NCBI RefSeq assembly: GCF_000001735.4 | Contig: NC_003074.8 | Location: forward strand, 18,855,261-18,919,260 | Source: Arabidopsis thaliana | Taxonomy: Eukaryota; Streptophyta; Magnoliopsida; Brassicales; Brassicaceae | DNA length: 64,000 nt | Reading direction: 5' to 3' | In this document: positions 8,999-62,246 of the stretch, piece after piece | How the letters are laid out: each line of letters opens with the position of its first letter | How positions within the stretch are numbered: position 1 is the first letter of the stretch | Position numbers and translations under genes: made by a program | The notes under the pieces: model-generated | Databases searched by the model: none | Told to the model about the DNA's origin: nothing | Seen by the model: only the letters and a program-made list of their open reading frames with translations

Positions 8999-10131
8999 GT
9001 ATATTAATATATAGAGATGTAGAATTGATATAAGTCTCTTTTAGCTTATGTTATTCACTACTCTCATGTAACTATAAATACATCTTGTATGTTTCTTTTA
9101 TCTCATTCTCTCATTCTTTTCCAGGAAAATCATAACAAAAACATTTCTGGGAAAATCATCATCAATTTTCAACAATTTCTTCGATTCATCTTCATATCTT
9201 CATCTTCATCATCATATCTTCTCCAAAATTCATCATCCTTATTGTACGATGAGAGAATCAAGCCATTGATGCTCCATTTTCTTCATCATTTCTTTCATCC
9301 ACCAAATCGAAGAAATTGTTACTTTCGCTATCATCTTCATCTTCGTTTTCTTCAATTCAATCATCTATTGATACTTCGGTTCTTCGATTCTTTGATTCAT
9401 CATTGATTCTATCATCATTCATCGATTCTTTCGTTCAACATCATCTTTGGTTCAAAATTACAACAATGTCGACAGATCAATATGATAATTCGTTCTTTCT
9501 TCATAGCTCGGATCATGCTGGGTTGGTTCTTGTATCAGATCGTCTCAACACTGGAGCTGAATTTCATTCTTGGCAACTCTCTGATTTCTTGGAAGTCAAA
9601 GAAGCAGAATGTGGCAAGTAGTAGTAGTACAGAAGCTGAGTACAGAGCCATGGCAGTGGCATCTGATGAAATGGTTTGGTTGAATCAGCTTCTTCAAGAT
9701 CTACATATTACAATCACAACTCAAGCCAAGTTGATGTGTGACAACAAATCTGCTATGCATATTGCAAATAATCCAGTCTTTCATGAAAGGACCAAGTACA
9801 TAGAGATAGATTGTCACAAGACGCATGATCGTATAAAGCTAGGTTTTCACAAGGTTTTTCATGTTTCAACAGCTAACCAGCTTGCGGATATCCTGAAGAA
9901 ACCTCTGCCCCCAGGTCCTTTTCATTCATTGCTTGGACGAATGTCAGTGTCAACTCTCTTCACTCCACAAGAAGGTTTTGATTCTAAGAGTTGAGGGGGG
10001 TGTATTAATAATATATAGAGATGTAGAATTGATATAAGTCTCCTTTAGCTTATGTTATTCACTACTCTCATGTAACTATAAATACATCTTGTATGTTTCT
10101 TTTATAATTAATGAGAAATTCACTTTCATCA
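8999..10131 (+). mobile_element. Ty1/copia LTR retrotransposon remnant (fossil)
   Basis: Two direct LTR copies are visible: the left from about 8999 to about 9108, the right from 10001 (TG) to about 10131 (CA). A GAGGGGGG polypurine tract sits just before the right LTR. The internal part keeps only the C-terminal RNase H portion of copia Pol (recognisable STEAEYRAM and ADILKKPLP motifs, about 9610-9994) plus a TCATC-rich stretch. Gag, integrase and most of the reverse transcriptase are gone, so the element is broken, with at least a few breaks besides the large loss. The aligned LTR parts differ at about one site in roughly 97, which suggests an insertion under about a million years old by the usual plant substitution rate. 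Confidence 0.85.
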
Positions 10132-35747: not shown

Positions 35748-37051
35748 TCACTCAATCTGACCGTACCAAACCCCTTGGATCTTCACATCTTTTGGTACCT
35801 TAGCACCCAAGTCAGTATCCGATGGCTGAAGACTCTCGAACACTCCGATCACTTCACCTGTCTCCGGTTTGCTCTTTGTGATCTTCAAAGTGATCTCTCC
35901 GACGGAAGCCGCCGTGTTCTTGACGTTTTCCTTGGATAGCTCTTCCTCGTCTCCTCTGCCTCCGGCAGGCAAAGCCACTGCATTATCGTACCCAGTGGAT
36001 CCACCACGACCCTTTGGGTCCAAAAAGGACGAGCCACGGTACGATGGAACTAAGAACTTGCCACTGAAGCTTTCGGGTTTCCCTGAAGCCTCGAGCTGCT
36101 TAACCGTGAAGAGGAACGGCACGCGTTCTCCTCCCGGAAGCTGGACTGTGACTGCTGCGTAATCGATACCATCTTCTTCCTTGAACTTCACGCTTCCGTC
36201 TGAACCAACCTGATCAAATGACAACAATTCAATTGACTTGTTATCAGTTTCTTGCGGTAGAAGCAACAACTGGAAACTGAGATTGAACTAAGTGATTGAA
36301 GAAAAACCTCGAAGGGTCCTTCGATCTCATCGAGTGTGTAAGTGAGACGGGTCATGAGCTTGGTGTTTTGGAAATCCGGCGGTGCATTCTTGCTGACGCT
36401 ATCTGCCTTGACGGTGAAGGAAGTGGGCTCGAAGCAGAACTTCTTGCCTGTGTACTTACCAGCTTTGAACGAGAATGTCTCAGAGCCACCATCGATAGTT
36501 GGACACTGGTTTGCCGTACCGGTACCCTTTACCTCCATGTAAGTCTTGCTCTGTATCTCGTCGTACGTTAGCCTCTTTGGTGCTCCCTCCGCACCGGCCC
36601 CCTTCATTACCCAAAACATAGGTTAAAAATACTAGACTTTGCAAATAAACATGCAATGTAATCTACATATATTACTGTGACATAACAAAACCTCTATACA
36701 CTAAGCTATTAGCCCTAGCCAACACAACTTCTTAAGTTTGTTTTCTTCAATAAACACAAGGCCTATAAATTTTGTTAAGTTTGTGAGATGAATGAGAATA
36801 TGAAGTTATACCGAGACAACGAGAGCAGAGGTGGCTAGAGCAAAACCGGCGATCTTGGCGGCGTCGGAGCATTTTCCAGCGAAGTCTTTGAGGTCAGAGT
36901 GGAGAGAGCACGTGAGCCTAGCTTGTGAAGAGTCTAACCCAAAGGACTTGCCCACGGTTTGGTTTGATCGGAGATGGACATTACGAGAAGGAGAAGCGGC
37001 AATCTTCGCCGGTTGAAGAAAAGTTGCGGCGGCTTGGAGAGAAGTTGCCAT
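35748..37051 (-). CDS. PSBO2: Oxygen-evolving enhancer protein 1-2 (PsbO2), 33-kDa manganese-stabilising subunit of photosystem II
   Basis: Three exons, 36812-37051, 36308-36601 and 35748-36209, all phase 0, give the full 331 residues. Residues 1-58 are a stroma-targeting peptide. Residues about 60-84 are a thylakoid-transfer signal ([17 protein letters not shown] then GAGA), cleaved before [15 protein letters not shown] at E85. The two Cys that form the PsbO disulfide are present, at mature positions 29 and 52. The protein sits in the thylakoid lumen and stabilises the Mn4CaO5 cluster of water oxidation. PSBO1 is the main isoform; PSBO2 is recognised here from length and context. The protein is intact. 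Light-response motifs lie upstream (see 37141-37215). Confidence 0.97.
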
Positions 37052-37970: not shown

Positions 37971-38050
37971 AAAGGCACTCAGAATGAGTAGGAGGTATAT
38001 ATTCATCATGAGAATCAGATGACAATAAAACAATCCTCATCATGCCTTTT
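37971..38050 (-). ncRNA. C/D-box snoRNA
   Basis: On the minus strand all four boxes are perfect: C box ATGATGA (38037-38043), D' CTGA (38015-38018), C' ATGATGA (38003-38009) and D CTGA (37979-37982). A 7-bp terminal stem, AAAGGCA with TGCCTTT, closes it. The guide before box D reads ACCTCCTACTCATT. It can pair over about 12 nt with an ATGAGTAGGAGG segment that I remember from plant 25S rRNA, predicting a 2'-O-methylated A there. The guide before D' resembles the complement of TGACAATAAA, remembered from 18S rRNA. Location would be the nucleolus. The rRNA matches are from memory and need an alignment. Confidence 0.85.
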
Positions 38051-38139: not shown

Positions 38140-38227
38140 TTCCTCTCAGACAAATGCCTCGTTTGTCCCCATGATTTAATGAATGGATTTCATCGGACTC
38201 GTCATCTGTGTATTCATCACTGAGAAA
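38140..38227 (-). ncRNA. Candidate second C/D-box snoRNA
   Basis: It lies about 90 bp upstream of the clear snoRNA on the same strand. Box C is GTGATGA (38214-38220), box D is CTGA (38146-38149), and a C'-like CGATGAA lies between. TTTCTC and GAGGAA form a 6-bp terminal stem with one wobble. The D' box is weak. I could not name an rRNA target for the guide before D (ACGAGGCATTTGT). Plant snoRNAs usually come in such polycistrons, which supports the call. Confidence 0.5.
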
Positions 38228-41092: not shown

Positions 41093-43114
41093 CTAACTAA
41101 GAAAACGTCGTGATCTTCTATCGACCATCGTTGCCTCCTGTGAATCACAAACTTGAGCCGAAAATTTGCATCCGAACTTCTTCCCGATTGACCATTTCCC
41201 CGCCCCATGCTTCGCCTTCAACAAACTTTCTTTGTCGATCTTCGCGATCACTTTCTTCAAGTACAAGCATTCTTTCTCTAGCTGGTTCACTCGTGTCCTC
41301 ATCGTATCCATATCCAAACGAAGCACCTGATTCTCCTTCACCGCTTCCTTCCATCTACCCAAGTCCACCACCGTTTTATCACCGTCTTCCTCCGTCAGTA
41401 AAGTCCCAGTGATTACTTGCCGGAGCTGTAGCTGCTCCAAAAACAGAACTTGTACGACGGCTCGTAGTGGTAAACGCTCGTTTTGTGCCGCGTGTGTGCA
41501 TCCTTCAACAGTCAGTTTTCTACAATCCATCACGCTACAAATCTTCTCCTTCTCTTCCTCCAATATCCATGAATGAGTCTATAAAAACAAAAATCACAAC
41601 TCAATCATCAGGTGCTGTGGTGTAGTGGTTATCACGTTTGCCTTACACGCAAAAGGTCTCCAGTTCGACCCTGGGCAGCACCAAACCATAGACAATTTTA
41701 TAAATTTTTATAATTAATTACCTTGAAATATATATCGACGGCTCTGTATAGTCCATCATCGTAAACCCGTGCTTGAACCGGAAGCAAAACCGCCAGATTA
41801 TAAAACTGTTCCGGTTTAAGATTAGCGTCCGATGCAATTTCACCGAGAACTCCGTCGATCAATCTCCCAACCACCGTCAATGACGACGACGACACGGCGA
41901 CGTTTTCGAGAAAACGACGTAAGAGTCTCTCCACCAAATCAATATCGTATAACGTTTCGTTGAGATACGAGTAACTTGGAATGAGAAGATCATCAAGCGT
42001 AGCTTTCTCAAGATTCGATCCGATTTTTTTCTCTAGAAACTTCCTGCAATTCTCGGAGGCGTTGAGAATGATCGCGGCTCGTAACAAACCGAAGAGAGAT
42101 CTCGTAGTCGTCGCAGTTAATGGAAGATCTGAAGTTATCGTCTCTAATAATTCTCTTTGTTGATTCTCGGAAGCTATGGTGGTGGAAGAAGAAGAAGAAG
42201 ATGAAGATGCTGACGATGAACGCGAGATTCCTGGAATGTGTTTCTTCGCGTAAGTAAGTAGAGATCTCTCTACAATCTCAGGACTCAGGACACTCGACTT
42301 CATGGATAAGATCACACGTCTGAAGATTGGAAAACTCAACTCCGTTAGATCTTCGAACCAAAGCTCTGTTTTCGAATCTTTGCTCTGTTTCTTCCGGTCA
42401 ACGGTGAATATACCTCCGTTGTTTATTGGCCAACCGTAAAACGACGACGGATCGGTTGAGGAAGCTTGGAAGACGATGGAGTCTATACACTGTTCCGTTA
42501 TACAGAGTGATTCAGCTAAAGACGAGACTGATTCACAAGCTTTCAACGCTTTGATGGATTCTTGTACGTTAGTGAAGACGAACTCTGAAAGAAACTTCTC
42601 TGTTTTTGAAATGAGATTCTCCGGTGAGTACTCTTCCGTCATTTCTAGATACTCGGCGGCGCAACGGAGTGGAACAGCTGTGGAAACAGAGATGTCGACT
42701 TTGAAACCGTAGCTTATCTTTATCACCATCTCGAAAATCTCTGAACCTCCTGGAAAATTCTCGAGCTTGATGTGAGAATAAACTTTACTCTGTTCTTGCT
42801 CTGTTATTAGTTGGTGAAGTTTTTTGCTTTTTGACATTAGAGGAAACTGAAGAAAGAATGATCAACATATCAGTTTTAGTTTTTAAGAGTAAACTCTGAA
42901 AGAAGAAAAAAAAACAGAGAAGAAGATGAGACCTTATGAAGATGAAATGTTATATCATCAACTTCGATTTCTATGTCACTTGGTAAGCCTGTGGTATAAA
43001 AAAACCTACACAAGAGATAAAGATTTTATAAGTATTTGAATATGAAAACATTACTATTGAAAAAAATGAGTGTTTTGTTCTTCTTCACCATGCTTGCTTC
43101 TTGGAGTTAGCCAT
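41093..43114 (-). CDS. NPH3/RPT2-like BTB protein (At3g50840-like)
   Basis: Four exons, 43089-43114, 42933-43005, 41722-42846 and 41093-41578, with GT-AG introns and consistent phases, give 569 residues starting [19 protein letters not shown]. The BTB domain is at about 17-110 ([18 protein letters not shown]). The NPH3 domain runs from about 195 to 470 and includes [13 protein letters not shown] and the hallmark [20 protein letters not shown]-terminal coiled coil (about 490-530) precedes a basic tail. Family knowledge: NPH3-like proteins are plasma-membrane-linked CUL3 adaptors in phototropin and auxin-transport signalling. The role of this member is unknown. The last intron (41579-41721) contains a tRNA gene on the opposite strand. 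Confidence 0.93.
41611..41683 (+). tRNA. tRNA-Val (anticodon TAC), inside an NPH3 intron on the opposite strand
   Basis: 73 nt. The acceptor stem is GGTGCTG with CAGCACC, followed by discriminator A at 41683. The anticodon stem TTTGC/GCAAA encloses the loop CTTACAC, so the anticodon is TAC, reading GUA Val codons. TTCGACC marks the T-loop and the D-arm TGGTGTAGTGGTTATCA is normal. A TTTT at 41695-41698 is a likely Pol III stop. All stems pair, so it looks functional. It lies antisense within the 143-nt last intron of the NPH3 gene. Confidence 0.95.
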
Positions 43115-62172: not shown

Positions 62173-62189
62173 GCTGGAATAGCTCAGTT

Positions 62190-62222
<33 letters not shown>

Positions 62223-62246
62223 GAGGTTCGACCCCTCCTTCTAGCG
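62173..62246 (+). tRNA. tRNA-Asn (anticodon GTT)
   Basis: 74 nt. The acceptor stem GCTGGAA pairs with TTCTAGC with one G-T wobble; the discriminator is G. The anticodon stem TGTGG/CCACA carries the loop CTGTTAA, anticodon GTT. The D-arm TAGCTCAGTTGGTTAGAGC and T-arm GGAGGTTCGACCCCTCC are canonical, and TTTT follows at once as the Pol III stop. It looks fully functional. Confidence 0.97.

Follow-up and report, generated by a model that had tools for sequence, protein, structure and literature searches.

The last intron of an NPH3-family gene of Arabidopsis thaliana, 143 nt long, encloses a complete 73-nt tRNA-Val(TAC) gene on the opposite strand. We consider it likely that this is a probably active tRNA-Val(UAC) gene, an independent and mostly passive antisense Pol III unit that was gained by a conserved intron of minimal size after the host had split from its closest paralog, and that is tolerated there.

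Results

Host gene and nested tRNA

In the window, that is, the whole 64,000-nt stretch of DNA analysed, which spans C3:18855261-18919260, the host gene (which we take to be AT3G50840) has four coding exons (Table 1) that join into a single open frame of 569 aa; the ends of exons 1 and 2 were also set by what we take to be homology within the family. Both parts of the Pfam NPH3 match (PF03000, cut-off 27) are above the cut-off, with 225 bits before the last intron and 29.1 bits after it, and since the match ends at profile position 231 (having begun at 1) and resumes at 232 (ending at 258), the splice is supported. The intron begins at the donor AAG/GTAATT and ends at the acceptor TTTTTATAG/ACTC. 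No relatives of exon 4 were found in the genomic-contig and viral-contig collections searched.

Table 1. Features of the host gene, the nested tRNA gene and their surroundings; positions are those of the window.
Feature	Position	Strand	Basis
Coding exon 1, NPH3-family host	43114-43089	minus	reading frame, splice-site words
Coding exon 2, NPH3-family host	43005-42933	minus	reading frame, splice-site words
Coding exon 3, NPH3-family host	41722-42846	minus	Pfam NPH3 match, reading frame
Coding exon 4 (last), NPH3-family host	41093-41578	minus	NPH3 domain end and C-terminus
Last intron, GT..AG, phase 0, 143 nt	41579-41721	minus	sequence, Pfam, joined frame
Branch-like motif CTGAT, sole CTRAY motif of the intron	41607-41611	minus	motif only
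tRNA-Val(TAC) gene, 73 nt, without tRNA intron	41611-41683	plus	ARAGORN, Rfam
TATA-like element TATAAAAA, starting at -31 of the tRNA	41580-41587	plus	sequence; TATAWA survey
Two CAA motifs, at -14 and -9 of the tRNA	41597-41604	plus	sequence; leader survey
Putative Pol III terminators T4 (41696-41699) and T5 (41705-41709)	41696-41709	plus	sequence
PSBO-like exon (name presumed)	35748-36287
C/D-box snoRNA snoZ105	37979-38048	minus	78.3 bits
C/D-box snoRNA SNOR75	38141-38225	minus	106.3 bits
tRNA-Asn(GTT) gene	62173-62246	plus	Rfam 71.1 bits, ARAGORN
ORF of 195 aa, copia-like (motif presumed)	9407-9994	plus	by eye

The tRNA gene scores 64.3 bits against Rfam RF00005 (gathering score 29, E 1.1e-11) and is called by ARAGORN as well, so that a chance tRNA-like sequence is ruled out. 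It lies entirely inside the intron, on the strand opposite to the host as read from the sequence, with 38 nt between it and the donor end and 32 nt between it and the acceptor end of the intron. The initial annotation had described an intact plus-strand tRNA-Val(TAC) within a 143-nt minus-strand last NPH3 intron, with about 30-38 nt left on each side for splice signals and with the tRNA oriented head-on against the NPH3 pre-mRNA; its coordinates, strand and lengths were confirmed, and the spacing and the orientation hold as well.

The genome has seven tRNA-Val(TAC) matches, the nested copy included. Five copies are identical, and the nested one differs from them by a single T to C change in the T-loop, at position 59 by our own count, a change that leaves the B-box consensus intact. 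Counting the nested copy, C is found at this position in 7 of the 52 tRNAs that could be parsed among 53 examined. Another TAC copy, L007:1497-1569, has two acceptor-stem changes that by eye are compensated on the other arm, so that pairing is kept. A table in the available part of PMC3777163 names AT1G01870, AT3G50835 and AT4G16235 as TAC genes among the putative precursors of tRNA-Val fragments, three names that match the count of three sequence versions found here. The nested gene fits AT3G50835, as chromosome and anticodon agree and the number stands just before AT3G50840; the intronic location is not discussed in that part of the paper.

Besides the nested gene, the window has a second tRNA gene, tRNA-Asn(GTT), and an ORF that by eye resembles the end of a polyprotein of what we take to be a copia-type retroelement.

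Family introns and history of the tRNA

It had been suggested in the initial annotation that the tRNA was inserted into a family-conserved intron, and the comparison of NPH3 loci supports this. An intron at the same site (exon ending at the same codon, phase 0, then GT) is present in 26 of the 30 loci, the four without it being L008, L009, L029 and L032; two more genes with NPH3 matches, at C5:3217565-3218509 and C5:19517149-19517907, lie outside these 30. The 26 are made up of 23 measured introns, the host's included, and of L011, L033 and L035, whose 3' ends were left unsettled by the script: the lengths called for L011 (525 nt) and L033 (965 nt) were considered erroneous and left out, and L035 gave no call. 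The 22 other measured introns range from 68 to 237 nt with a median of 82.5 nt, and the host intron without its tRNA (143 - 73 = 70 nt) would fall at the short end of the family, where the lengths are 68, 70, 70, 71 and 71 nt. ARAGORN found no tRNA in the other 29 loci, which leaves the host locus (L025) as the one in 30 that carries it.

The paralog closest to the host is L017, with 70.8% identity across 212 alignment columns and a node support of 1.000. Its intron, 82 nt long, is empty, and ARAGORN finds no tRNA anywhere in the locus. Because the tRNA is present in a single locus and the intron of the closest paralog is empty, the sequences suggest that the tRNA most likely entered after the split or duplication that separated the host from L017; alternatively, it may have been lost on the L017 side rather than gained in the host. 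The PSBO-like exon of the window has a 92% match at C5:26569642-26570121, which lies about 3.5 kb away from the exons of L017; the sole other match besides these two is a weaker one (76%) on C4. Such a shared neighbour would fit the duplication of a block, with the synteny amounting to one neighbour. The snoRNAs snoZ105 and SNOR75 lie close to each other in the interval that separates the PSBO-like exon from the NPH3 gene.

Two routes of arrival were considered and rejected. Retro-insertion of a mature tRNA does not agree with the missing CCA, as base 73 is directly followed by AACCATAG and no CCA is encoded there, and no telling target duplication is present: the two flanks inside the intron share no direct repeat longer than 6 nt, a length equalled in 64.8% of 1000 shuffles (intron only). 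As to segmental duplication that carried flanking sequence along, the seven TAC copies appear unrelated by eye in their 60-nt flanks, with the short extensions past the tRNA in the L003 and L004 matches taken as chance. When the flanks were joined into an empty-site intron, the alignment with the L017 intron scored 12.0 (shuffles 0.1 +/- 4.3); this score need not mean orthology, since among the 16 introns shorter than 100 nt that were compared L026 also reached 12.0.

Leader and terminators of the tRNA gene

The comparison sample of tRNAs was drawn from 63 scored matches out of 7744 candidates, with the nested tRNA not among the 63. Left out were 8 matches on C6 and C7 and 3 on C2 near 3.44-3.50 Mb, all presumably organellar, 1 in the window and 8 others. 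The remaining 43 places, in 40 loci, gave 46 tRNAs with ARAGORN, and together with the 7 TAC copies these form a sample of 53 that is biased toward high scores.

Judged against the 52 other tRNAs, the nested gene has a plant-type leader, AT-rich (72% AT in the 50 nt upstream) and with CAA, and a downstream T-run. A CAA in the last 20 nt upstream was found in 43 of the 53 and TATAWA at -45 to -18 in 10 of the 53, the nested gene counted in both, and a T4 run within 60 nt downstream in all 53, and in these three features the nested gene is inside the range of the sample. By its own definitions PMC11700998 gives, in the part available, TATA boxes upstream of 22%-32% and CAA upstream of 78%-82% of detected plant tRNA genes. 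The T4 run of the nested gene lies 12 nt past the tRNA end (the T5 run 21 nt), which is more distant than in 44 of the 53, and a first T-run that is both short and far counts against reading the gene as active. Together with the one-base difference from the five identical copies, it would suit a silent relic that is tolerated as intron filler; we hold such a relic to be quite unlikely, with the cloverleaf intact, C59 found in other tRNAs too and the promoter-like elements in place.

One stretch with signals on both strands

A detail newly noted here is that the tRNA leader and the 3' signal region of the intron appear to share 31 nt on opposite strands. On the plus strand these nucleotides are the tRNA leader, and on the minus strand they are the region of the putative branch site, the pyrimidine tract and the 3' splice site, reading CTGATGATTGAGTTGTGATTTTTGTTTTTATAG up to the exon. 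Read on the minus strand, the TATA-like element forms the final bases of the 3' splice site, and the complement of the leader CAA motifs sits between the branch motif and the pyrimidine tract. We infer from the motif that CTGAT is the branch-like motif of the intron. The A of CTGAT stands at 41608, at a distance of 30 nt from the exon. The C with which CTGAT opens is complementary to G1 of the tRNA, so that the motif is completed by the first base of the tRNA.

Plant introns require U-rich sequence. In antisense the tRNA is 45% AT and 19% T, the adjoining exon ends are 55% AT, and the 70 nt of intron outside the tRNA reach 81% AT and 50% T, against family maxima of 76% and 49% among the 22 introns. 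Such a composition could reflect either the need of the intron for U or the AT-richness of the sequence next to tRNA genes.

The sharing allows a more far-reaching reading, in which the 3' ends of plant introns, taken in antisense, are ready-made Pol III leaders and TFIIIB and Pol II compete for them, which would make the tRNA a Pol III-dependent brake on one NPH3 gene. A reversed pyrimidine tract is A-rich with CAA, and here the TATA box, the CAA motifs and the first tRNA base would also serve, on the other strand, as the 3' splice site, the pyrimidine tract and the branch site. In the 22 family introns the antisense-read 3' ends contain CAA in 16 cases (11.7 +/- 2.2 in composition shuffles, with 18 of 500 reaching 16), compared with 3 of 22 for the same ends on their own strand and 10 of 22 for the 5' ends as sense leaders. 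TATAWA occurs in 0/22 in antisense and 3/22 in sense, and a T4 terminator would be on offer in 12/22 and 14/22, respectively. CAA thus mildly favours antisense nesting, whereas TATA and terminators do not, and we look on the brake as an improbable reading.

Folding of the antisense copy

According to the initial annotation the antisense copy would fold strongly in the pre-mRNA and might affect splicing. The first part was not borne out, as an unusually strong antisense fold is not supported against shuffled sequences: for the whole intron z is -1.50 (14 of 200 shuffles as stable), and for the antisense tRNA alone, at -23.0 kcal/mol compared with -26.4 kcal/mol for the sense tRNA, z is -1.34 (27 of 300 as stable). 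What survives is the predicted folding near the splice signals. When the intron is folded together with 50 nt of each neighbouring exon, most bases of the donor and the branch motif are paired in the predicted ensemble, the first six donor bases being unpaired with a probability of 0.12-0.29 and the branch-motif A with 0.05, and the pyrimidine tract is mostly open.

This predicted pairing of donor and branch motif does not look passive, and it would agree with an antisense tRNA structure that modulates splicing, as would the report in the available part of PMC7722341 that intronic mitochondrial-type tRNAs change splicing in human cells. However, the stability of the fold is ordinary, and in the same source one mt-tRNA, tried in antisense, brought no increase in exon inclusion, for which the authors cite lost antisense-stem G-U pairs. 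We therefore regard splicing modulation as very improbable.

Discussion

The observations can be brought together in a simple scenario. A tRNA-Val(UAC) gene would have arrived in antisense in the minimal intron of one NPH3-family gene after its separation from the closest paralog. Using the internal A and B boxes together with a CAA and TATA-like leader, Pol III would transcribe the tRNA gene and would stop at the T-runs while still inside the intron, and the host pre-mRNA would be spliced normally, the effect of the tRNA on the host being presumed small. We propose two reasons why the nesting may be tolerated: the antisense copy in the pre-mRNA is no tRNA, and hence tRNA-processing nucleases would not act on it, and the 70 nt left over may be AT- and U-rich enough for splicing. 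A tRNA nested in sense would be present in the pre-mRNA, where RNase P and RNase Z could attack it. That sense nesting is avoided does not hold in general, as 56% of intronic tRNAs in Caenorhabditis elegans are in sense according to the available part of PMC4999229, and the orientation seen here therefore proves little.

The main rival, possible by analogy but in our view unlikely, is transcriptional interference: the head-on Pol II would be slowed by Pol III itself, or by TFIIIB sitting on the leader and thus on the DNA of the 3' splice site, with less NPH3 mRNA or altered intron retention as the result. The closest parallel is the antisense MIR of the mammalian Polr3e gene, which has the same geometry, a unit transcribed by Pol III from A and B boxes of its own that lies in antisense in an intron of a Pol II gene and meets Pol II head-on, and whose deletion in the mouse gene removed the Pol II pile-up and raised expression, with an effect of about 1.5-fold on the protein (PMC5358760, available part). 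There, interference was demonstrated for a SINE in intron 1, whereas the NPH3 locus has a tRNA gene in a 143-nt last intron. In human cells, five nuclear tRNAs placed in a reporter intron lowered the mRNA, from a cause that the accessible text of PMC7722341 does not establish. An effect on splicing would matter here, since intron retention would append VINYKNL to the protein, followed by a stop at 41698-41700. Against interference, very few Pol III units cause such pile-ups in human cells, as far as the excerpt of PMC5358760 goes.

The influence could also run the other way, with the passage of Pol II and the chromatin of the host limiting when the tRNA copy is active. This would resemble C. 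elegans, in which tRNA genes are found in protein-coding introns on either strand (44% and 47% of worm tRNA genes are given as intronic), Pol III occupies intronic tRNAs less than tRNAs outside introns, and one intronic tRNA that was studied relies on the host promoter (PMC4999229, in the part available). The same source gives opposite-strand tRNAs a higher occupancy than same-strand ones, though, and with six other TAC matches in the genome there is no evident need for such control, so that we find control by the host hard to credit. Neither interference nor host control is exclusive of the passive gene that we prefer.

A Pol III gene nested in antisense in an intron is a known type, of which the NPH3 locus is a real and compact case. 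Dependence on the host promoter was tested in C. elegans, and the available part of PMC4999229 says nothing of signals shared by a tRNA leader and a splice site. The human nimtRNAs likewise are tRNA sequences inside introns, yet they are of mitochondrial origin and act as pre-mRNA structures (PMC7722341, excerpt), whereas the NPH3 locus has a nuclear tRNA gene in antisense. No description of a tRNA nested in an NPH3 intron was found in the titles and starts of abstracts among the top-ranked literature matches, which mostly leave subscription papers outside their coverage, and the available part of PMC4809280 has nothing on point about such nesting.

The rarity of the arrangement was surveyed with a home-made hexamer coding score in the 53 tRNAs, at 47 loci. 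With a score of at least 20 on both sides, on one strand and within 250 nt, a threshold that was picked after the scores had been seen, the nested tRNA-Val locus was the only one in the sample. The locus L064, with scores of 22 and 17, came near the threshold. Its tRNA-Asn has the coding-like score in sense, 22 at 36 nt upstream and 17 at 207 nt downstream, and might also be nested in an intron. This suggests that such tight nesting is uncommon, as far as an uncalibrated score and a biased sample allow.

If the tRNA is a mere passenger, the locus is an ordinary nested gene, and it is not surprising in itself. It is nevertheless unusually compact, with 143 nt accommodating both a tRNA gene and a spliced intron in what seems to be the best-studied plant, and a stretch of 31 nt would bear signals for both on opposite strands. 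Its interest lies in its use as a test bench: C59 is unique to the nested copy among the seven TAC matches, so that tRNA-seq could in principle read its output separately, and interference between Pol II and Pol III would thereby become directly testable in a plant.
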